Positions 3,825 to 15,592 of a stretch of DNA of 20,021 nucleotides are shown one piece after another (positions within the stretch are counted from its first letter, which is position 1; each line of letters begins with the position of its first letter). A program made the position numbers and the translations under genes. This stretch comes from a virus, in the IMG/VR virus record IMGVR_UViG_3300037882_000729, positions 1-20,021 of that record. One strand, 5' to 3'. The notes beneath the pieces are model-generated. The model had not been told where the DNA came from. It searched no databases and saw nothing but the letters and a program-made list of their open reading frames with translations.

Positions 3825-4640
3825 TTAGCCCCAAGAGGCTTGAACTGTGAATTTGCCGCGTAGCAAAGTTCCTTTGCCGCCTTTGCCGCCTCGGTTGTAA
3901 TCTTCAACCGGCTCATTGAGCATGTTGGTATTTTTGCCGTAAATCGTAAAGCCAACGCCAGCCACGATATTGCCAGCCGTCACTGCGATGGTTTCAAGCC
4001 AATGCTCATCAGCCGAGTGGTCGGTTGTCGCCTTGGCATAAATCCAAGCGTTGACCTTACTACCAGCTACAATGCCAGCCTGTCCAGTAATCACGACACT
4101 GGCATCGCTTGCGCCTGAGCCGAAGTCAAGCTCGGCCTCAATGAAGTTTCCGCCACCACCGGACGGCGAATCGGTAATGGTGTATTGAGTGCCGGAATCC
4201 CAGCTTCCAAGCGCATCGTATTGTGCTTGCGTTCCAGTCCATACCTTCCAATCAGCGCCGCCAGAGCGCTGATTCGTTAAGCGCTCTGCTTCGCCTGATA
4301 GCATGGCCGCGTGAATCCGAGCGGTTTCAACCGTCCAGACAGAGCCGCCACCAGAAACAACAACATCGCCCTTGTCGCCATCGCTAACGCCGCCGCCGCT
4401 CGTATAAACTGGTATGTTCAGAACGCCGCCAATCAATGTTGCCGCGCCAGAACTGCCCGTGGTAGTAAGCTCAAGCGCAACTGGTGTAGAGGTCGGTTGC
4501 TGGACAAAAGCACTTAGGTCAACCAGTGTGCCGTCAAGGTTGTAAAGGTTGACACCCAAAGTTGCGCCAACCGTAGCGCCGCGCTCTACCTCATCGTAGC
4601 CGCCTTGCTTGTGGAGCTGGACGCGAATTTTCTTTGCCAT
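3825..4640 (-). CDS. Tail-fibre-like protein, 271 aa
   Basis: A modular beta-rich protein with several elements typical of phage tail fibres. One is the segment SDGDKGDVVVSGGGSVWTVE at about residues 85-104, close to the widespread GDKGDVTVS.....W.ID fibre motif. Another, at about 129-156, resembles the QYDAL....SGTQYTITD motif that often marks fibre junctions. The C-terminal part (about residues 165-271) is strand-rich with Gly-rich stretches near the end (DYNRGGKGGKGTLLRG). The start ATG 4640 lies three bases from the upstream stop, with GGA as a weak ribosome binding site, so coupling is likely. It follows the SGNH-bearing fibre gene and may form part of the same adhesion device. The exact role, shaft or receptor-binding tip, cannot be told. 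Confidence 0.8.
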   Translation of the reverse strand: MAKKIRVQLHKQGGYDEVERGATVGATLGVNLYNLDGTLVDLSAFVQQPTSTPVALELTTTGSSGAATLIGGVLNIPVYTSGGGVSDGDKGDVVVSGGGSVWTVETARIHAAMLSGEAERLTNQRSGGADWKVWTGTQAQYDALGSWDSGTQYTITDSPSGGGGNFIEAELDFGSGASDASVVITGQAGIVAGSKVNAWIYAKATTDHSADEHWLETIAVTAGNIVAGVGFTIYGKNTNMLNEPVEDYNRGGKGGKGTLLRGKFTVQASWG

Positions 4641-4643
4641 TCA

Positions 4644-6371
4644 TTAAATCCAACCCAGCCCAATAATGTGCTGGTGAATGTAGGCCGCTTTCAGTTGGTA
4701 GCCTTTATCGTTCAGGTGGATTGTGTCAGAGCGCAACGAGCGCGGCACTAAACCATCGGCAATATCGGCAAGGTCATTAGCTGAACCATCGCCCTGCGTC
4801 ATCAAATAAGCGCGAACATTGCAGAATCGGTTGCCCCATGTTGCCGTGGCGTAGGCGTCAAACTCGTCTAGCGCGGCCTTGGTTGTAGTACCGCCCTCTG
4901 CCCTGTATGGCGGTATGACAATCCAGCGCTTGCGGCCTTTTGTTCCTGCAATACAAGTTTCAATGTTTGCGTAGGTTGGGCTCCAGCCACTTACATTCCA
5001 TGTATCATTAGTGCCCATGCACAGAAGCTGAATCCAGCGGTCTTTCTCGGTGGTGTCAGCCACAAAGCGTGCAGTGATTGCCGCTGATGATTCGCCGCCC
5101 GCGCCTTTCTGGTCAACGAAATAGCCCGTCATTTGCTCAAGGCGTAGCGGATAGCTGAAAGCAATGGCTGTGCCACTGCCCGCAGTCATGCTGTCGCCCC
5201 ACGCCTGCATGTGGCTATCCACGTTGTTGTATTGTTCTAGGTTTTGGCGCTCGGTAGTGGATAGCGATTTGCCAAATGCGCCAAATCCGTATATCCGACC
5301 ACTCGCAAGCCACGAGCCGCCAGAGCCGCGACCCTCGCCCACAAAGAAATTGGGCTTCGTGCCGAACACGTTTGTATTGGCTACCGGCGTACCTACAAGA
5401 CCGTTGCCGTAGTCTGTAATAAAGGACGATGTAAACTCACCTAAATCGAACTTGGTGTACCGTTTTTGCTGTGAAGTTCCCGCCTCGCCGTCATATGCGG
5501 AAATAGTTGAAGCGTTCCAGTCAATGCTACGAGCCAAGTCTAATATTTTTGTATCTACTGCCGTGTTCGTTAACGCTACCGCACCAAACACACCGCCAAC
5601 CCTGTCATCGCGCGTTTGTGCAACCAACGTAAACGGATACGCGCTGACCGTATTCGTGCCGCTGTAAAAATCGCCGCCATCCGAAAACAGAAAGTAAGGC
5701 GCACCAACGCTACCAGCGTCAGCATCCCAAATCATTATATTGTTGACTGAGCCGCTAAAGGTCGATACTGTGAAATCCAGCGCATTGGTGTTAGTTGCGG
5801 TAATGTATTCTTCATAAGTGGCGCTTGCGGAGCGCGTCACGCCAGCTGTGCCGCCAAAATTAAGAGTTACCGAGCCAGCCGTGCGGACAACGGTATAGCG
5901 GACTAGGTACAATTTTCCTGCGGTTGCATTGGATATGTTGTATGTAAAATTGCCCGTTGCAGATACAGCATCCGCCATTGCATCCGTAATCGACCAGCCA
6001 GCGCCAAGCGTCCAGTTTGCAGGCGTAAAGAAATTGCCATCAGCCGCCATCAGGTTTGCGCCTGTTGGCGTACCGCGCAAGCGCATTTGATTGGCAGAGT
6101 TAGATTGCGTGATGATTGGAATATCACCACCACCACTGCGGATAGAGGCCACTAAGCCATTCACCGTGGCAGGCGTAGTACCGCCTACGTCAGAGAACGT
6201 GTTGCTTGTGGTAATCCGCATGGCTTCAAAGCCGCTTACACCGCCTGCAAACAAGGATGCAGGGGTGAAGCCGCCAACATCATCAGCAGGCTCAAACAGG
6301 CCGGTCTTAATTGCCTGAGAAAGCTTTCGGACGACCGGAGTGATGACTGGCTGAATGACGCGCGAGAGCAT
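4644..6371 (-). CDS. Tail fibre/spike with C-terminal SGNH hydrolase domain, 575 aa
   Basis: The protein appears modular. Residues 1-30 may be a virion-attachment helix. Residues about 104-216 look like a jelly-roll carbohydrate-binding-like domain. Residues about 225-385 look like a LamG/concanavalin-like domain, ending in the typical IYGFGAFGKSLSTTERQNLE. Residues 386-575 are an SGNH/GDSL hydrolase with block I WGDSMTAG (nucleophile S394), a block II glycine in GAGGESSA, block III GTND (453-456) and block V DTIH (D549 and H552). SGNH enzymes often remove O-acetyl or other acyl groups from sugars, so this fibre probably binds a surface polysaccharide (O-antigen or capsule) and deacylates it during adsorption. 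It starts at ATG 6371 overlapping the previous stop (TGATG). The substrate cannot be inferred. Confidence 0.9.
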   Translation of the reverse strand: MLSRVIQPVITPVVRKLSQAIKTGLFEPADDVGGFTPASLFAGGVSGFEAMRITTSNTFSDVGGTTPATVNGLVASIRSGGGDIPIITQSNSANQMRLRGTPTGANLMAADGNFFTPANWTLGAGWSITDAMADAVSATGNFTYNISNATAGKLYLVRYTVVRTAGSVTLNFGGTAGVTRSASATYEEYITATNTNALDFTVSTFSGSVNNIMIWDADAGSVGAPYFLFSDGGDFYSGTNTVSAYPFTLVAQTRDDRVGGVFGAVALTNTAVDTKILDLARSIDWNASTISAYDGEAGTSQQKRYTKFDLGEFTSSFITDYGNGLVGTPVANTNVFGTKPNFFVGEGRGSGGSWLASGRIYGFGAFGKSLSTTERQNLEQYNNVDSHMQAWGDSMTAGSGTAIAFSYPLRLEQMTGYFVDQKGAGGESSAAITARFVADTTEKDRWIQLLCMGTNDTWNVSGWSPTYANIETCIAGTKGRKRWIVIPPYRAEGGTTTKAALDEFDAYATATWGNRFCNVRAYLMTQGDGSANDLADIADGLVPRSLRSDTIHLNDKGYQLKAAYIHQHIIGLGWI

Positions 6372-6750: not shown

Positions 6751-6930
6751 ATGAATCTAATCTACATCGTGTTTGCTTTTGTATTCGGCATGGCTTGCGC
6801 CACGGCAATCGGGGTATTAGCTGGCCTTGCGGTAGGCTGTTTTGTAATAGCCGCTGTCACCGCGCCAGTATGGTTGCCGGTCGTCCTCATTCTGAAATCG
6901 AAACAACGTCACGATGCCAAGCCTTGTTGA
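6751..6930 (+). CDS. Possible 59-aa membrane protein on the opposite strand
   Basis: Inside the gap between the giant gene and the fibre genes, the plus strand holds an ORF from ATG 6751 to TGA 6928-6930. Two hydrophobic segments fill residues about 2-22 (NLIYIVFAFVFGMACATAIG) and about 23-48 (VLAGLAVGCFVIAAVTAPVW is its first part), and the tail is basic and hydrophilic (LKSKQRHDAKPC). That topology looks like a real small membrane protein. Against this, only a weak GGTCGG precedes the ATG, no clear promoter is visible on this strand, and its last 44 bases overlap the 3' end of the giant gene. If real, it could be a lone added gene (moron), for example one that alters the host envelope. No function can be assigned. 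Confidence 0.4.
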   Translation: MNLIYIVFAFVFGMACATAIGVLAGLAVGCFVIAAVTAPVWLPVVLILKSKQRHDAKPC

Positions 6931-9900
6931 ACGATTTTTGCTGTTCAGCGCGCTCCCTGTTTAACTCTTTAATTTCCCTGTCACGGGCAATCGTCTTTTC
7001 GTTAGGTAAAATAGAAGCGCCAGCTTCCTTGTAGGCCGAACGGTAAGAGTCATTGCGCGCGTCAATGGCCTTCTCGGTTTGCTTGTAAAGCGCATAAACG
7101 GTATCGCCGCGAGCCTTCAACTTTGGATTGCCTGTTGAGGTCACACCAACGATGCGCGCGCCGGTCAACTCTGGAGTCCGCTCGATGAAGTATTCTGCGG
7201 CACTCTTGCCGTCTTGCTTAAAGATGTCCTTCAGCTCATTCTCAGCGCGAACAATTGATTGAGTCCGGTCGTAATACAGGGCTTGCTGGGATGCCACATC
7301 ATCAACGCTGGTGAAGAACCGCTTTGCAATAGGGATGTCGCGCATGGTCAAATCAGCGCTTGCGTATGCCTTCTCACCGAGCGTTGCAACATCCAGCACG
7401 AACTTGCCTGCACCGCCACCAAGCTCTTTCAGGATATACTCGATGTCTTCCGGCGCGCGGTCGAACATCGAAAATGGCGGGGCTTTGTAGTCATCGCCGC
7501 CGCCAAGTCGGTTCAGGCCGGTAGCGGTAACTTTAAATATTTCCATAGTGTCCGGCTTTCCTACACTGGCAAGCGGGGCATCGGCTCGGTCATATGGGTT
7601 TTCTTTACGGATAGGGATTCCCAAACCGTCCTTGTTTCGGGCAATGTTGACCGCTGGGCGAATGGCTTGTGGCACTAAACCCCAAACCCCCTCATCAAGC
7701 GGAACGGGCGAGAACGATTCGACAGCCGCATTCATGATGTCGGCAACCGCAGTGACGAATCCTTGTTCTGGTCGCTCGCCTTTGTTGGTAATTGCATCAA
7801 CCATTTTCGATGCGCTGTATGTAAATACGTTCATACCATAAGGCATCGGAATGGTCATGTAGTGCGAGGCATCGACCGGAATGACGATATTGCGGCGCTT
7901 CACATGGTCTGGAATTTTATCCCACAACGAATCTTCGTCATCGTCTTCTTTCAATCCCATTGCATACATTGCGGCAATGGTTTGCAATGCCGCCATCGTG
8001 CCAAGGTACGCATAGGTCTTGTGGTTCTTCATGACCTTCAGAGAACGCGCCGCGCCCTGCACCGATGCATTGAAGAACAGTAGCAGGGCATTTATTTGAG
8101 TTCCGTTCGTGCCTTTGCGGTTGAAGTTCACCGTCAGGTTTTTGGCGTACTCAGCCGCCTTCTCGACACTCATGCCGTTTTCGCGGAGCGTGATGTAGGC
8201 AGACAGGCGCAAGGCGTTCTCAACTGCATCGTTGATGTTTGAAACGCCGTCAGCCAGCAGTGCCGCAAACTTACGGACTCCCTGAGGGTCGAAACTTCCG
8301 AGCTTTCCGCTTCCGAGTTTAGCCTGAAGCTCCTCAACCGACTCCATGTGAACATAGCCCGTCTTGCCACCGGCCTTGGAAAACTCTTTAGCCCATGTGT
8401 CGTACTGGCTGTTGCCGCTTTTGCCGCGCGCATAGCGGTACGCCGCCGCCGCCGCGAACGGATAGTTCGATGCCGTCTTTGCCGCCAACTTCGTACCATG
8501 CTCGACAGCCATGCCGGTCAATCCGAAAATCATGTCGCGCGAAGCATTGACCGGAATGAAGGCTGGGTTGTACTGAGTCAGCACCGCGCTGAAGTAACGA
8601 TTGACTTTTGCGGTTGCAGTCAGGAAGCCATTAAGGTGTGCAACGCCAAGGTTCTTCAGGCCAGCCATCAAGCGCGGGTCTTTAATCTCAACCTTGTAAA
8701 GCTTGCCGTTGTGCTTGACCGCGATGATTGAAGGGTCGCTCCAGTCTTGGACGACCTTTTCAGCCACATCGCCGTTTGCGTCAAGGTAGCGCATGGTCTG
8801 CACCGGCTCAACTTCCCATAGGGTGCTTGGGTTTGCCAGCACAAGGCGCATAAGCGCGCGGCCTACGCGAGCCTTCTCAGCCGCTACCAGCGAGCGCTGG
8901 GAATCGCCAATCACTTCGCCAAGGACATTCTTCGCCTCATTGCCAGCACCGCGCCCTAGCGCGTTCTTAATCAGTTTGCCACGACCATCCAATCCTTGCC
9001 CAGTGCCAGAGCCTTCGGATTCGTATTCATCCTCAGTGCCGCGCAATGGAACGTAGTGCTTGTACATAGAGGTCAGCACCGAATACGATGCGCTGTCAAT
9101 CAGTCCGCTGTTGAACTGGCGGGTCAGCGTGTCTTTAATCAGCGCATCAACCTTGGCGGCAATGGTTTTAAGTTTGGTCAGCTCATCCGGCGAAAGTCCT
9201 GCAATGTATGCATTGGCATCGGCAGTTGTCATGCCAGAGCCGCCGTCAGGCATTTGCGGGTTGATGCTTGCAATACGCGCATTGCGTTCAGGGGCATGGC
9301 GCGCAACAAGGTATTCTTGAAGTTGCTCAGGCTTAACGCCAAGGCGATTCATATCTCGGTCAATCGGCATCCAGTATTTTCGCTCAAGTTCTTTCATGCC
9401 GTCCGATACGCGACCATGCATTAGGTTTTCAAGGCGGTACACATTCTGCGCGTCAGGCAATGGCGAGCCAATGCCTTTTTCAATCGCGGCCTGAACATCG
9501 CGCCAAGCCAGCATTTTGTCCTGAAGCGCCTCACGCGCTTTCTTCAATTCGCCGGTAACGCCTTCCCAAGTGTTCGTGTCGTAGTTCCAGCCAGCCGTGC
9601 CGGTGTACTTACGGGAAAACAATGGAACTTCGCCAGCCGCAACCTTGTCGCGCAGGGCTTGGGGAATGGTGAAACCGAGTTGTGCGCTTCCTTTGCTGGC
9701 ATCAACTTCATCGGCGGAAACAACGCGAGAACCAGCGTGTTGACGCGCAATTTCATGCGCCTGTGAATCATAATCGGTCAACGCAATAACATCGCCATTA
9801 GGACGAACAACCGCAATGCTACCGCTACCAACATCACCAAGCGTCTCGGTGGTATTGACACGGATATGCTCAACCTTCCCGCCGCCGAGCTTCTTCAGCA

Positions 9901-12900
9901 CGTCATTCGCAACCTGTGGCACAAGCTTATCGTAGAAAGCTTTCATGCCTTCGCCGCCAACTTTGAGGTCAAGGCCGGACAAGGTTTTATCGCCCTTGCT
10001 CGGCGCGGTTTCAATTATTTTTTTAGCCAGCTCTTTGCCGATAATATCTTCCAGCTCGGATTCTTTAGCGCGCTGTTTGCTCAGAATGCGTCCGCCGTCC
10101 AAACCATAGGCATAAACCCCGTATGTGCCATCTTTATTTTTCCAGTAAGTCACTTCCTTGATGCGCTTGCTCAGGTCATACAAATCCGCCGCCTGCTCAC
10201 CGTTGATGAAGGCGATGCGGTCAATGTTGTTGTCCACGGCGTAGCGAATCATGCGCTTGATGGCAAGTGCCACCCATGCTTTCGTGTCGGTGACGAAGGG
10301 GGCTTTCGGAGTTTCTTTTGCTCTACGGTTTTTTCTGAACCTTTCGTCAGCAATTTCATCTGCTCTTCGACTATCAATAGTTTCAGCGATTATCCTGTCA
10401 TCTGCAAAAACACCATATCCATTTTCTGTTTTTCTTACCTCAACCCTTTCCGCTTTATCGTCAGAGGCAAAGCCATCCTTCCGGCCTTTCTGCCCCCAGT
10501 CGGATTGGATTTCGTTGATGAACAGAACATCATTGCCATCGGCGTCCTTGCGGTCATCGAAGCGGATGTGGGCGAGGATGTTTTCTTCATCCCAGTGTGA
10601 AGAAGAGAATCGACCAGCACTGTCGCGGTCAGGCAACGTCAGCAAAAGCTCACGATATTTTGTGCCGCCTGCTGGGCGGTATTCGCCGAACTTGGTTACT
10701 TCAGTATCAGCACCAATATCATCTGGGTCAAGGTTAAGTTCTTCAGCAACCATTGACGGGTCGCCACTATAAAGAATTTCATCGCCTTCCATGACATCAA
10801 TGACGCCATTTTCATAACGATACACCGAGCCGTTTTCAATTCCTGAAGATTCATCTTGGACATACGTTTCAATGTAGTTAGCAATAGCGCCTTCATCAAT
10901 ATCTGCTTCTTCGCGCTTCAACACTTCTTCAACGCGCACACCACCAGCATCAAGGTAGGCCGACACATCTTCCTTCGACAACTTGCCTTGTTGCAGGTCG
11001 AGCCATTCATTGATGCCGGTGTATTCCAGCTCATCAGCCTTAACGCCCATCTTGGTCGAGTTTGCGGCAATCCATTTTTTCCACTGGTCTGCGCTAACCT
11101 GCTTCAGCGGAGCGCCTTCAACCATTCGCGCCAGCGGCGAGAACGTCCAGTCGCGCGAGTCGGTTACGTTTTGTTTGCGCGAAAAGCTGACAACCGGAAC
11201 TTTCTTTTTCAGGCCGAACAGAACAACAACCGGCTCGGTGATTCCGCCAATACCGCGATAGTCATACAGCGCGCCGTCAAATCCAGCTTCAACAACAGCT
11301 TCTTCAAACGCATCGGGATTTCTGCGGAACTGCTCAACAAGGCCAAGCGGGTCGGACTCGGTATCGTACAAGTTGTCCATGCGAACCATGTACCGACTGT
11401 TGCCGGATACTGCTTGCTCTTTGGATGGCACGTCTTCATTTGACTTGGCGTAGAAATACAAGCGGCGCGCGGTATCGCCAGCCTTGGCGGTTGCGCCATA
11501 ATTGCCAATACCAAATCGGCGGCGCTCAGCACCAGCCGAGCCTGAGCCAGCATACCTTGAGTCAAGCTCAGATAAGCCTTGAACGCTAGAGTAATGAACT
11601 CCAACAACAGCAACCGAGTTCTGGCGCGGATTGCCGAAGGTTGGTACGTCTTGAGCTATTTCGGGGAGCTTGAGCCAAGTTGGGCTTGTCGGCGCTGATA
11701 CGCGCGCTCCAGAACTTCCGGCAGAAGGTCGCGCATTCGCTTGTCGAACGCCGGACTGTTCATCGGTATTTGAGGTTTCTTTTTCATTGCGCATTGTACC
11801 TTTTTTTCGTGAGAATTGCGCGCCATCTTCCGATACCCATTCCGGCAAAAGTCCTACTTTCTGTTCTGCGTAAATGGTATCTGCTGGCGATGCCTTGCGA
11901 TTTTGTTCGCCAAACTCGCCGTAGTTCACCCATGAGTTCTGGCCACGGGTTTCAGTGGTCATTGCGCGGCGAGCGAGCGGCGAGTACATCGCGCTATGGG
12001 AGCGCCATGCGTTCTCTTCGCCGGTTGCACGGAATCCGACACCTTCTTTCGCGTGGCCGAAGTAGTCATGCACGACACGGAAAATATCGTTTGCGAGTGC
12101 TGGCTTTCCACTAATCGTGTACTCGGTTTCAACAAGCATTGGATTGTCAGAAACATCGAGAGTGCCTGAGCCAAAGCCATCATTGGTAGGAAACACCCAG
12201 AAATGGTTATTATCCACAATGTCGATAATGGCATTGCGGGGGTTGCCGTATGGGTCTTCGCCGGTAATGAATTCGATTTGCAGGCCGGTATCCAGAATCG
12301 CCTGATACTGGGCAAGCGTTTCCTGAATCATGGCCTCGTAGGCGCGCTTGGTCTGCGGGTCGCTTGGGTTGTGCGCCATGGCGCTGAACTCGTCAGCGAT
12401 GGCTTGCGCTCGCTCGGTATCAATTTGCGCGTAGCTGGTAGGCGGGTCGTATTTGAATCCGGCCTGCTCCATGTACCGCTTCGCGGCATCTTGAGCGGTC
12501 TTGAAGCCGCCAAATTCTACCGTGCGGCCATCAACGATTATCTGCCTTGGGAGTCCGGCGAGAGTGGTAGGTTGTTCGCCTTCAGCGCTCTTGCGATATT
12601 CCTGCCCACGGTCGAGTTCCACCTGCCCATCGCTTCTTCCCACTCGCCGTGACTGCTGAACTTCTCGCGCGGCGGCTTGGCCGGATACTTGGCTATCAGC
12701 TCTTCCCTGCTTACGGCTGGCTTCGATTCCTGAGTTTTCATTTGACTCGCCCTTGTTGGTTGGTGTGGATATTGTACCACTGCCACTCTGGCGCTTGGCA
12801 ACTTCCTGAAGGACTGCTTCCAGTTCCTTGCGGAATCCTTGAACGTCTTTCAGGAACTTGTCCGAGCCGAGATTCTTTGCGCGGCCTGTCAGGCTGTCAA

Positions 12901-15592
12901 TGAAGTCGAGCGCCACTTTGGCAAGGTCTTGGAACAGTGTCGGGTCGAGATTTGCAAGGCGCTTCCAGAAATCGATGTCGCCCATTGCATCGCCAATGGC
13001 ATCATTGGTCAACTCGACCAGCGCTTCATCGGCGCTCAGCACGGCAAAGCTTTTGTCCGCGCCCTTGTTGGTTTTGTTTCGATAGCCAAGGACATCGCCG
13101 TTCACGGCAACAAAGTCGGTCAGGCGCTTGTACAGGTCTTTGTGCTTGAATTGAACCTCATGACCAAGCTCATGACCAGCCACAACGATAGCCGGATTGT
13201 TCATGTCTTCCATCAAATACAAAGTTCCGCCCAAGCGAACGCCATCTGCATCAAGCTTGAAGCCTTTACTGACATCGCGGACAACGACAATATCAACCCC
13301 GAAAAGGTTGCTTAGTCCGCCAAGAACAGTATTCGTGCGTTCGGGCAATGCCGACCTCGGCACTTCGAGGAAGCTGGCGTTTTGACCGCCTTCGACTCGG
13401 CTTGCCGGATTTTGGATTGCGCTGGCAAGTCGCTGGCTTTTTTTGGTTTGTTGAGCCGCGCCGACAGCCTCGATTCCAGTATTCGATTTTGCATACTCGA
13501 TTTCCCCTAAATTGGTCTGACTCTCAGGCGCTTGGCTTGCGGAGAGAGGCGCAGGCTCTGCGGCCTGAGAGCCAGTTTTTACCTGCGATGAAATAAGCGC
13601 ATCCAAGTCATCGGTTGGCTCTGGCGGCTGTTGCTTAGGCGCAATGCCACCAAGCTCGGTGATGATGGCATCAAGCTCATTCAGTACTTCAGGATTGTCT
13701 TGAATGCCTTGGACAATCTGACCGATAGGGTCATTGCCAAGTTCACCCAAATCCTGAACAGGCGAATTTTGAACTGTAAAGGATTGCTTTACAGTTGGTG
13801 GCGCAAGTGAGTTGGCAAATGCGAGCAGGTCGTTATCGTTGTCGATTTTGCCGAGCTTGGATTGCAGTTCGCGGAGCTGGCTTTCTGCCGAGCCTGCCGC
13901 GCGGTGCGCTTCAAGGCGAGATTTGATTTCAGCTTGACGTTCGCCAAGGCGCGCTTTGTCGGCGGCGCTGATATTATTTTCTGGGCTTCGGATTACATTG
14001 TTGCGCTCAAGTTGCTCTTGCTCGCGCAATACGTCATTGATGTCCTGAAGCTCGGCCTGAAGCGCTTTGGCTTCGGCCTTATCAAGTCGGGGCTTTGTGG
14101 CTGACTCAAGCTCGGCGATTCGGTTGTCGATGACAGAACCGGCCTCAGTGAAAGAGCGCTGGGCTTCAGCCTTTTGCTGGACTTCCGCATCGGCCTTGGC
14201 CTCAATGGCCTGACCGATTGCACCCAAATCTTCAGGCGTGACTTCGGGAGTTGATTGTTGCGCCGGAGCATCGGACGATTGCCCACGCAAGCGCGCGGCC
14301 TCAATGGTAGCTTGCGCAGAAGCAATGGCTTGCGCCGGAGCGCCTGCAACCGCTTCAAGCAAGGCCTCCTGCGGGTTGTATCCCTGCCCAGAAGCCACCT
14401 GTGCGAGCGCTTCTGTTGCATAGTCGCCAGTAGCGCCAACGCCGCCCTGAGCGAGCGGGTTAAGAATAGCGGCCTTTGCAGGCGTTGAGGCAATGCGCGA
14501 AGGCACAAGCGCTTTGCTAGCCACTCCGCCAGTAATAACGCCACCAGCGCCAACAACTAGCGCTCGCGTTTGTGCCTGCTCCACAGCTTCAGCAATAACT
14601 TCTTTCGGCAAGCTCGCCCATTCTTCGCGCGGTATCTGTTTTTCATCCAGATAGTTTGCAATGCCGGATGCCATTTCCTGTTGGTAGTTCGATGCGCCCC
14701 CGATTGCGGCTAAGGCGTATGGGTTTCGTGTAAGCGCCGAAACGGCGATTGCTGGCGATGAGCCAGCAAGTGATTCGGTTATTAGCGCCGTTGAATCCAG
14801 CGGGTTTTTAACAAGAGTTCCCAGTGTCGGTAAAAAGCCTTTGTCAGCCGCAAGCTCTTGGTCAAATCCTGCGCGGTCTGCCGACTTTTGATAGCGCTCG
14901 CGTGTCGCTTCACCGGAAACTTTATTCACAGCAATCGAGCCAAGGGCATCGGCCTGTATAGCTCTTAGTCCGGCAACCTCTTCTTCATTGGCTGGAATAA
15001 AAGTGTCGCCAATGTAGTAGCCGCCATAAAGCTCAACTTCTTTTAAGCGATTTGCCGCGCCAGCCGCATCAAGTGCTGGCAAGGTGTTTTTTGTTCCTTC
15101 GACCAAGTTGGAAATAAATCGTCCAGCCAAGTTTTTTCCGCTTTCAATTATGCCAATTTCTTTGCGTTGATTCACGCCTTCGCGCGTCTTTACGTATGCG
15201 CCATCAGGCGCAATGGCATAGTCTTTTGTTGGGTACGGATTGTTGATACTGCCAAGAGCAGGCATATTCGTGCCACGCCCACCAGAGCGAGTCTTGGCAG
15301 GATACCGGCTCGTTATTGGTTGCTCCCACGGCTGGCGCTTGCGCAAAAACTCAGGAACGCCGCCAATGTTGTCGGGTGTCATGTAGTCAATGTCGCTTGG
15401 TCGTCCTATGGCCTCAATAGCAATTTGCCGTGTTTTTGCCTTCACATCAGCCATCGGCTCAAGGCGCTCGCGCGAAACTGGAACTTCAGCTTGCTCGAAT
15501 AAATCATCAAACGAAATAGCCGCATTCTTAGGTGCGGCTTTTACGGTTGGCTTAACCGACTCATCAAACAGGTCATCGAAAGATACAGACAT
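6887..15592 (-). CDS. Giant 2901-aa polyvalent protein, probable ejected internal virion protein
   Basis: It starts at ATG 15592 (GGTGA about eight bases upstream). Visible regions, with rough residues: twin SFDDLF motifs (4-9, 27-32); Ala/Gly-rich hydrophobic stretches (255-395); charged helical, probably coiled-coil region (460-580); metallopeptidase-like region with HELGH (807-811) and a downstream acidic helix (E856, E860); conserved module (about 1015-1235) with VFPTNDGFGSG, HDYFGHA (1175-1181) and TTETRGQNSWVNYGE; ADP-ribosyltransferase-like region (about 1330-1470) from VGVHYSS to AGFDGALYDYRG; large module (about 1485-1995) with SHWDEENILAHIRFDDR and EIQSDWGQKGR (1694-1704), known from polyvalent proteins (LPD class); C-terminal LPD38-like region with YNPAFIPVNASRD (2341 on) and LTVNFNRKG (near 2487). 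Polyvalent proteins are thought to enter the cell with phage DNA and counter or reprogramme the host. The position matches T7 gp16. Enzyme activities are inferred. Confidence 0.88.
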   Translation of the reverse strand: MSVSFDDLFDESVKPTVKAAPKNAAISFDDLFEQAEVPVSRERLEPMADVKAKTRQIAIEAIGRPSDIDYMTPDNIGGVPEFLRKRQPWEQPITSRYPAKTRSGGRGTNMPALGSINNPYPTKDYAIAPDGAYVKTREGVNQRKEIGIIESGKNLAGRFISNLVEGTKNTLPALDAAGAANRLKEVELYGGYYIGDTFIPANEEEVAGLRAIQADALGSIAVNKVSGEATRERYQKSADRAGFDQELAADKGFLPTLGTLVKNPLDSTALITESLAGSSPAIAVSALTRNPYALAAIGGASNYQQEMASGIANYLDEKQIPREEWASLPKEVIAEAVEQAQTRALVVGAGGVITGGVASKALVPSRIASTPAKAAILNPLAQGGVGATGDYATEALAQVASGQGYNPQEALLEAVAGAPAQAIASAQATIEAARLRGQSSDAPAQQSTPEVTPEDLGAIGQAIEAKADAEVQQKAEAQRSFTEAGSVIDNRIAELESATKPRLDKAEAKALQAELQDINDVLREQEQLERNNVIRSPENNISAADKARLGERQAEIKSRLEAHRAAGSAESQLRELQSKLGKIDNDNDLLAFANSLAPPTVKQSFTVQNSPVQDLGELGNDPIGQIVQGIQDNPEVLNELDAIITELGGIAPKQQPPEPTDDLDALISSQVKTGSQAAEPAPLSASQAPESQTNLGEIEYAKSNTGIEAVGAAQQTKKSQRLASAIQNPASRVEGGQNASFLEVPRSALPERTNTVLGGLSNLFGVDIVVVRDVSKGFKLDADGVRLGGTLYLMEDMNNPAIVVAGHELGHEVQFKHKDLYKRLTDFVAVNGDVLGYRNKTNKGADKSFAVLSADEALVELTNDAIGDAMGDIDFWKRLANLDPTLFQDLAKVALDFIDSLTGRAKNLGSDKFLKDVQGFRKELEAVLQEVAKRQSGSGTISTPTNKGESNENSGIEASRKQGRADSQVSGQAAAREVQQSRRVGRSDGQVELDRGQEYRKSAEGEQPTTLAGLPRQIIVDGRTVEFGGFKTAQDAAKRYMEQAGFKYDPPTSYAQIDTERAQAIADEFSAMAHNPSDPQTKRAYEAMIQETLAQYQAILDTGLQIEFITGEDPYGNPRNAIIDIVDNNHFWVFPTNDGFGSGTLDVSDNPMLVETEYTISGKPALANDIFRVVHDYFGHAKEGVGFRATGEENAWRSHSAMYSPLARRAMTTETRGQNSWVNYGEFGEQNRKASPADTIYAEQKVGLLPEWVSEDGAQFSRKKGTMRNEKETSNTDEQSGVRQANARPSAGSSGARVSAPTSPTWLKLPEIAQDVPTFGNPRQNSVAVVGVHYSSVQGLSELDSRYAGSGSAGAERRRFGIGNYGATAKAGDTARRLYFYAKSNEDVPSKEQAVSGNSRYMVRMDNLYDTESDPLGLVEQFRRNPDAFEEAVVEAGFDGALYDYRGIGGITEPVVVLFGLKKKVPVVSFSRKQNVTDSRDWTFSPLARMVEGAPLKQVSADQWKKWIAANSTKMGVKADELEYTGINEWLDLQQGKLSKEDVSAYLDAGGVRVEEVLKREEADIDEGAIANYIETYVQDESSGIENGSVYRYENGVIDVMEGDEILYSGDPSMVAEELNLDPDDIGADTEVTKFGEYRPAGGTKYRELLLTLPDRDSAGRFSSSHWDEENILAHIRFDDRKDADGNDVLFINEIQSDWGQKGRKDGFASDDKAERVEVRKTENGYGVFADDRIIAETIDSRRADEIADERFRKNRRAKETPKAPFVTDTKAWVALAIKRMIRYAVDNNIDRIAFINGEQAADLYDLSKRIKEVTYWKNKDGTYGVYAYGLDGGRILSKQRAKESELEDIIGKELAKKIIETAPSKGDKTLSGLDLKVGGEGMKAFYDKLVPQVANDVLKKLGGGKVEHIRVNTTETLGDVGSGSIAVVRPNGDVIALTDYDSQAHEIARQHAGSRVVSADEVDASKGSAQLGFTIPQALRDKVAAGEVPLFSRKYTGTAGWNYDTNTWEGVTGELKKAREALQDKMLAWRDVQAAIEKGIGSPLPDAQNVYRLENLMHGRVSDGMKELERKYWMPIDRDMNRLGVKPEQLQEYLVARHAPERNARIASINPQMPDGGSGMTTADANAYIAGLSPDELTKLKTIAAKVDALIKDTLTRQFNSGLIDSASYSVLTSMYKHYVPLRGTEDEYESEGSGTGQGLDGRGKLIKNALGRGAGNEAKNVLGEVIGDSQRSLVAAEKARVGRALMRLVLANPSTLWEVEPVQTMRYLDANGDVAEKVVQDWSDPSIIAVKHNGKLYKVEIKDPRLMAGLKNLGVAHLNGFLTATAKVNRYFSAVLTQYNPAFIPVNASRDMIFGLTGMAVEHGTKLAAKTASNYPFAAAAAYRYARGKSGNSQYDTWAKEFSKAGGKTGYVHMESVEELQAKLGSGKLGSFDPQGVRKFAALLADGVSNINDAVENALRLSAYITLRENGMSVEKAAEYAKNLTVNFNRKGTNGTQINALLLFFNASVQGAARSLKVMKNHKTYAYLGTMAALQTIAAMYAMGLKEDDDEDSLWDKIPDHVKRRNIVIPVDASHYMTIPMPYGMNVFTYSASKMVDAITNKGERPEQGFVTAVADIMNAAVESFSPVPLDEGVWGLVPQAIRPAVNIARNKDGLGIPIRKENPYDRADAPLASVGKPDTMEIFKVTATGLNRLGGGDDYKAPPFSMFDRAPEDIEYILKELGGGAGKFVLDVATLGEKAYASADLTMRDIPIAKRFFTSVDDVASQQALYYDRTQSIVRAENELKDIFKQDGKSAAEYFIERTPELTGARIVGVTSTGNPKLKARGDTVYALYKQTEKAIDARNDSYRSAYKEAGASILPNEKTIARDREIKELNRERAEQQKSFNKAWHRDVVSISE

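Follow-up and report, generated by a model that had tools for sequence, protein, structure and literature searches.

A phage protein of 2,901 residues probably takes the place of T7 gp16 as a virion-type polyvalent protein: its N terminus would load it into the head, its C terminus would serve in ejection, and its exchangeable middle would be injected as cargo. The window analysed here is a virus record of 20,021 bases, and the gene lies on its minus strand (Table 1); the plus strand across 6887-15592 has stops throughout. The initial annotation had described a single uninterrupted frame, leaving out its strand, and had placed the product among the polyvalent proteins. Both statements hold: the frame was confirmed, and several disparate domains are joined in one large polypeptide encoded among late and virion genes, which makes the giant a phage polyvalent protein of a known kind, from a short-tailed-type phage. 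Many-domain giant phage proteins are common and mostly unexplained. What is new relative to known polyvalent proteins is a tandem N-terminal motif, a C-terminal module that is fixed across giants, and an unnamed domain with SAH-hydrolase neighbours. None of the three had been picked up by the initial annotation, and the unnamed domain and the doubled motif seem to be undescribed.

Table 1. Features of the window and of the giant protein, with the basis of each assignment
Feature	Position	Strand	Basis
P22 gp10/tail tube B-like protein, 599 aa	18137..19936	-	tblastn, E 1e-14
Internal virion protein, PHROG 308, 159 aa	17661..18140	-	E 2e-9
Three candidate internal virion proteins, 203/224/258 aa	15596..17657	-	position only
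Giant polyvalent protein, 2,901 aa	6887..15592	-	single ORF, ATG at 15592, stop at 6887, no internal stops
N-terminal motif (putative tag), copy 1, aa 2-11 SVSFDDLFDE	15560..15589	-	best internal repeat, first 110 aa
N-terminal motif (putative tag), copy 2, aa 25-34 AISFDDLFEQ	15491..15520	-	same repeat search
Ala/Gly-rich hydrophobic-helical region, aa 250-440	14273..14845	-	highest Kyte-Doolittle window at aa 344
Zincin-like metallopeptidase, aa 740-935	12788..13375	-	H807-E-L-G-H811 and E860, invariant in 8 homologues
Unnamed domain (PHROG 3170), aa 1010-1259	11816..12565	-	H1175-D-Y-F-G-H1180, E1192, H1199, E1214, Q1218
ART-like domain, aa 1319-1467	11192..11638	-	H1333, GFDG at 1437; family alignment; hhalign 78%
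Unnamed LPD-like domain, aa 1484-1930 (EIQSDW...DLKVGGEGMK)	9803..11143	-	homologues in phages
Conserved C-terminal module, aa 2015-2817	7142..9550	-	PHROGs 14770, 616, 10691, 10089
LPD38 (PF18857), aa 2555-2755	7328..7930	-	Pfam E 5.1e-31, 108.7 bits vs cut-off 27
Tail fibre-like protein	4644..6371	-	PHROG 11419, E 1e-16

Ejectosomal podoviruses are best recognised via tail tube B and then the candidate ejection genes (PMC10386132). Along the minus strand of the window, the tail tube B-like gene, whose tblastn match is the 'packaged DNA stabilization protein' of Microcystis phage Mae-Yong1326-1, is followed by the PHROG-308 gene, three small ORFs, the giant, the tail fibre-like gene, an endolysin gene and, recognised by eye only, holin-like and Rz-like genes. 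This gene position supports the T7 gp16-equivalent slot that had been proposed, and the arrangement is close to that in Pelagibacter phage HTVC028P. There, tail tube B is followed by an acetyltransferase (in the place of the window's PHROG-308 gene), internal protein A, a pair of large proteins, of which one holds part of the LPD-like domain, an internal virion protein and a tail fibre. In the IMG/VR contig L015, homologues of the 599- and 203-residue proteins lie, in the window's order, ahead of its own LPD38 giant. No homologue of the 203-residue neighbour turned up in annotated phages. With T7 gp16 and the P22 ejection proteins the giant shares the position after tail tube B and small internal proteins and before the tail fibres; the likeness is one of position. 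The giant gives no match to Pfam lytic transglycosylases. Its length is about twice that of T7 gp16.

The domain assigned with most assurance is LPD38, which is certain at the level of sequence and the only family above its curated cut-off when slices of the giant were compared with Pfam; in this respect the LPD content suggested earlier is borne out. According to Iyer et al. 2017 (PMC5512222), LPD38 is restricted to phage-type polyvalent proteins. The whole C-terminal block matches PHROG families with E-values down to 3e-150, including the DarB-like PHROG 10089. In 18 of 18 giants, the end of LPD38 lies 103-190 residues from the C terminus and the rest varies; judged by these sequences, it is thus the C-terminal module that stays constant, and the middle that varies as cargo. 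The Bcep22-like protein JC1 gp69 (4,515 aa, LPD38 at 4195-4401), of which 51 unique peptides were detected in purified virions (PMC9144972), fits this distance and is linked to the giant of the window through LPD38 alone. P1 DarB and the Bcep22-like DarB-like proteins are virion proteins to which the giant is related by the DarB-like match of its C terminus, whereas their methylase-helicase module was not found in the giant, whose cargo consists of the peptidase, the unnamed domain and the ART-like domain. We propose that the module spanning aa 2015-2817, with LPD38, would be the structural or ejection part of the protein.

How might such a protein enter the head? The pair of SFDDLF motifs at the N terminus was equalled as an internal repeat of the first 110 residues in 0 of 5,000 shuffles, and the motif is absent from the window's ORFs elsewhere. 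At the N terminus of other giants, different short motifs stand in two or three copies, among them SYFDQF (L061), NPYLDTL (L082), SQFDxVD (L116), LFLDEFG (L078) and SLREMF (L060); the motifs differ by lineage. When an ungapped-repeat score with a shuffle p < 0.05 was applied to 60 non-redundant giants and 304 control ORFs from the same loci, 23 giants and 33 controls had a tandem N-terminal motif (Fisher p 1e-6); a significant one is missing in about 60% of the giants. Because the motif had first been noticed in this set, we tested prophage giants from bacterial genome contigs as an independent set, and 5 of these 12 carry a tandem motif (p 0.008 against the same controls). The motif was not found elsewhere in its own locus in the 15 loci checked, and usually no more than about ten residues separate its first copy from a methionine that could plausibly be the start. 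This position matches the capsid-targeting sequence of P1 DarB, a head protein whose N terminus is needed for packaging; its first 30 residues are enough to bring a reporter into the capsid, and residues 6-10 are implicated in this targeting (PMC9024508). Since the N terminus of P1 DarB has no tandem motif, it is by analogy that we assign the motif of the giants a capsid-loading role, in which the doubled SFDDLF would recruit the protein into the assembling head. A published report of such a motif was not found in the literature searched, outside of which most subscription journals lie.

Between its ends, the giant contains the several distinct conserved regions that had been anticipated: the peptidase, the unnamed domain, the ART-like domain and the unnamed LPD-like domain precede the C-terminal block with its LPD38. 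They are joined by linkers, as had been stated; the description of these linkers as low-complexity is partly right, in that their composition is mildly biased. They are probably disordered rather than of low complexity, because the pLDDT of the AlphaFold2 (AF2) model falls below 50 in two stretches, roughly aa 939-998 and aa 1265-1326. Searched with Foldseek, the multi-domain AF2 model had no PDB match at E <0.001, and a helical bundle filled the Foldseek and VIA listings. An IMG/VR scan with the whole giant as single-sequence query found nothing, and for aa 1-960 there was no tblastn match in annotated phages. Within this N-terminal third, the Ala/Gly-rich region at aa 250-440 is possibly membrane-active, as its hydrophobicity weakly suggests.

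The metallopeptidase claimed earlier is supported. HEXXH with a downstream Glu is the signature of polyvalent zincin peptidases (PMC5512222), and in an alignment of eight homologues E808 is as invariant as the three residues listed in Table 1. Comparison with PDB profiles gave mostly metalloproteinases around HEXXH, at non-significant scores (best E 0.13). The zincin fold was modelled at low confidence over aa 771-856, and the fold search was filled by the helical part of the model; the first AF2 model says little about the peptidase because its alignment had misplaced peptidase-only rows over other domains. In our preferred reading, the middle of the giant would enter the cell together with the DNA. 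Once inside, the peptidase may cleave the linkers, releasing the unnamed metal-enzyme-like domain and the ART-like enzyme, and these would act on host factors ahead of new phage gene expression. The sequences themselves show the domains and their conservation, the fixed C-terminal module, the tandem motif with its excess over controls, and the gene order; we infer packaging and injection by analogy with JC1 gp69 and P1 DarB, and we likewise infer processing and all enzymatic activities. If the N-terminal motif loads the protein and the C-terminal module ejects it, loading, ejection and cargo become separately testable. One could also imagine that the cargo works during assembly in the producing cell, with the peptidase processing head proteins, for example, and no injection taking place; P1 DdrB, which has an MPTase, is indeed processed prior to packaging (PMC5512222). 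We give this idea little credence, as no assembly role is evident for the ART-like and other effector-like domains, and as DarB and the N4 virion RNA polymerase are instances of such proteins being packaged whole (PMC9024508, PMC5512222).

The ADP-ribosyltransferase that had been claimed is weakly supported by profile-profile comparison. Aligned by hhalign with a canonical ART-PolyVal set built here, the family reaches 78% probability, with the first His and the GFDG/GYDG stretch in register and H1333 invariant throughout the family; the strand-2 Tyr and strand-5 acidic residue of ART-PolyVal have no proven counterpart. No PDB profile matched significantly, and because 0 of 36 members match Pfam ART-PolyVal (PF18760), we call the domain ART-like and not a member. 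The family occurs in dozens of giants. The LPD-like domain that follows has homologues in cyanophage Dfl-JY45 (two copies), ct7L0027 and Pelagibacter phage HTVC028P (gp34). The Dfl-JY45 giant (L008:7343-14563) combines its two LPD-like copies with five ART-PolyVal-like stretches in one protein. Limnohabitans phage DC33 has a giant of 3,125 residues in the same slot, with a homologue of the ART-like domain (35% identity) and a canonical ART-PolyVal domain; it differs from the window's giant in that the LPD38 C-terminal module was not found and in having LPD22 at its N terminus. The DC33 record (L007, PQ492659.1) says Inoviridae; the giant, its ejection-type neighbourhood and the 39 kb resemble a tailed phage.

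Conservation is very high in the unnamed domain at aa 1010-1259, for which neither Pfam nor NCBIfam has a model. It matches 567 stretches in IMG/VR, the best 80 of which are 55-67% identical. Across 30 phage copies, the mean column identity is 63%, and H1175, D1176, H1180, E1192, H1199, E1214 and Q1218 are invariant; by its sequence, the domain is conserved like a housekeeping enzyme. It is widespread among phage giants, is present on hundreds of contigs from phages, and is found in bacteria as well. In phages it often stands immediately before or after the ART-like domain. The residues kept in this domain and in the peptidase look like the outcome of selection on active sites, not on shape alone. 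They bear on a rival view of the giant as nothing but a structural ejection protein, a trans-envelope channel like that of T7 gp16, whose cargo domains would serve a structural role or have lost their activity. Such a channel would agree with the gp16-like position, with the hydrophobic stretches of the giant and with a C-terminal module that is conserved in every LPD38 giant; it sits poorly with the column identity and the invariant HD..GH, E, H and E..Q of the unnamed domain, and with a peptidase that retains its H, E, H and E, and we consider it unlikely.

What could the unnamed domain be? Its AF2 model is confident (pLDDT 91, pTM 0.90), and no PDB profile matched significantly. The motif resembles FHDVFGH of bacterial aromatic amino-acid hydroxylases, and Foldseek listed TPH2 first (E 0.23, non-significant) and six more hydroxylase entries in the top 22, in alignments with a TM of about 0.19 and an rmsd of 17-18. 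VIA-align listed no match for the model, which says nothing for or against a new fold. With hhalign, the aromatic amino-acid hydroxylase family PF00351 scored 33.2 at 31% probability, and the best of 68 decoy families 22.1. The hydroxylase family is thus a suggestive lead, not a membership, and we do not claim the identity because the fold comparison gave no confirmation.

Running profiles made from the window's domains over 131 loci, we found that the order of domains is in large part shared, contrary to the suggestion that it may be new. The IMG/VR contigs L052 and L061 have unnamed domain, ART-like domain, LPD-like domain and C-terminal module, which is the window's order from residue 1010 on; a different type of peptidase lies further along in both. 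In L068 and L069 the order is peptidase, unnamed domain, ART-like domain and C-terminal module. That the giant has no single product and arose by gene fusion or as an artefact of assembly, an idea for which the metagenomic-type nature of the window's record speaks, seems extremely improbable: its 2,901 codons form a single open frame, and the independent contigs L052 and L061 have the same order across more than 1,500 residues. The phage polyvalent proteins in the available part of Iyer et al. 2017 (PMC5512222) resemble the giant in being large and multi-domain, in having virion genes nearby and in containing zincin MPTase, ART-like and LPD38 domains; the giant adds the domains at aa 1010-1259 and 1484-1930, neither of which has a Pfam model, along with the tandem N-terminal motif, of which that part of the source makes no mention.

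In bacteria, the unnamed domain is often a stand-alone gene. At 10 bacterial loci (L150, L151, L153-L158, L161, L167), not all of them independent, it directly adjoins an SAH-hydrolase-like gene of ~350-440 aa; at L152 the two are fused, and at six further loci, again not all independent, an SAH-hydrolase gene lies within a few kilobases. The adjoining 350-aa type, where checked, scores far below the housekeeping enzyme, and most of the genomes checked with it have a housekeeping SAH hydrolase elsewhere. Because SAH-hydrolase-like genes adjoin or fuse in 11 loci and lie near in six more, the domain might be a virion-delivered metal enzyme acting on SAM, SAH or a linked metabolite, which would disturb SAM-dependent restriction or methylation at DNA entry, with the doubled N-terminal motif as a lineage-specific capsid-loading tag; we offer this as a tentative and, on the whole, unlikely extension, in which we are guessing at the substrate, at the activity and at any effect on defence. 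The SAH-hydrolase-like neighbours do provide a first testable substrate class for the domain. In a plasmid search, the domain turned up in four non-mobilisable actinobacterial plasmids only, which argues against a conjugative origin.

The domain is also found in other settings. Microbacterium plasmids carry it, and at nine loci (L108, L111, L114, L117-L119, L123, L127, L130) it sits in a separate protein of ~475 aa and not in a giant. At L165, genes for a homocysteine S-methyltransferase and a methyltransferase adjoin it, and in actinobacterial proteins of ~460-585 aa (L171, L172, L174-L178, L184, L186, L188, L207) HD..AH replaces HD..GH.
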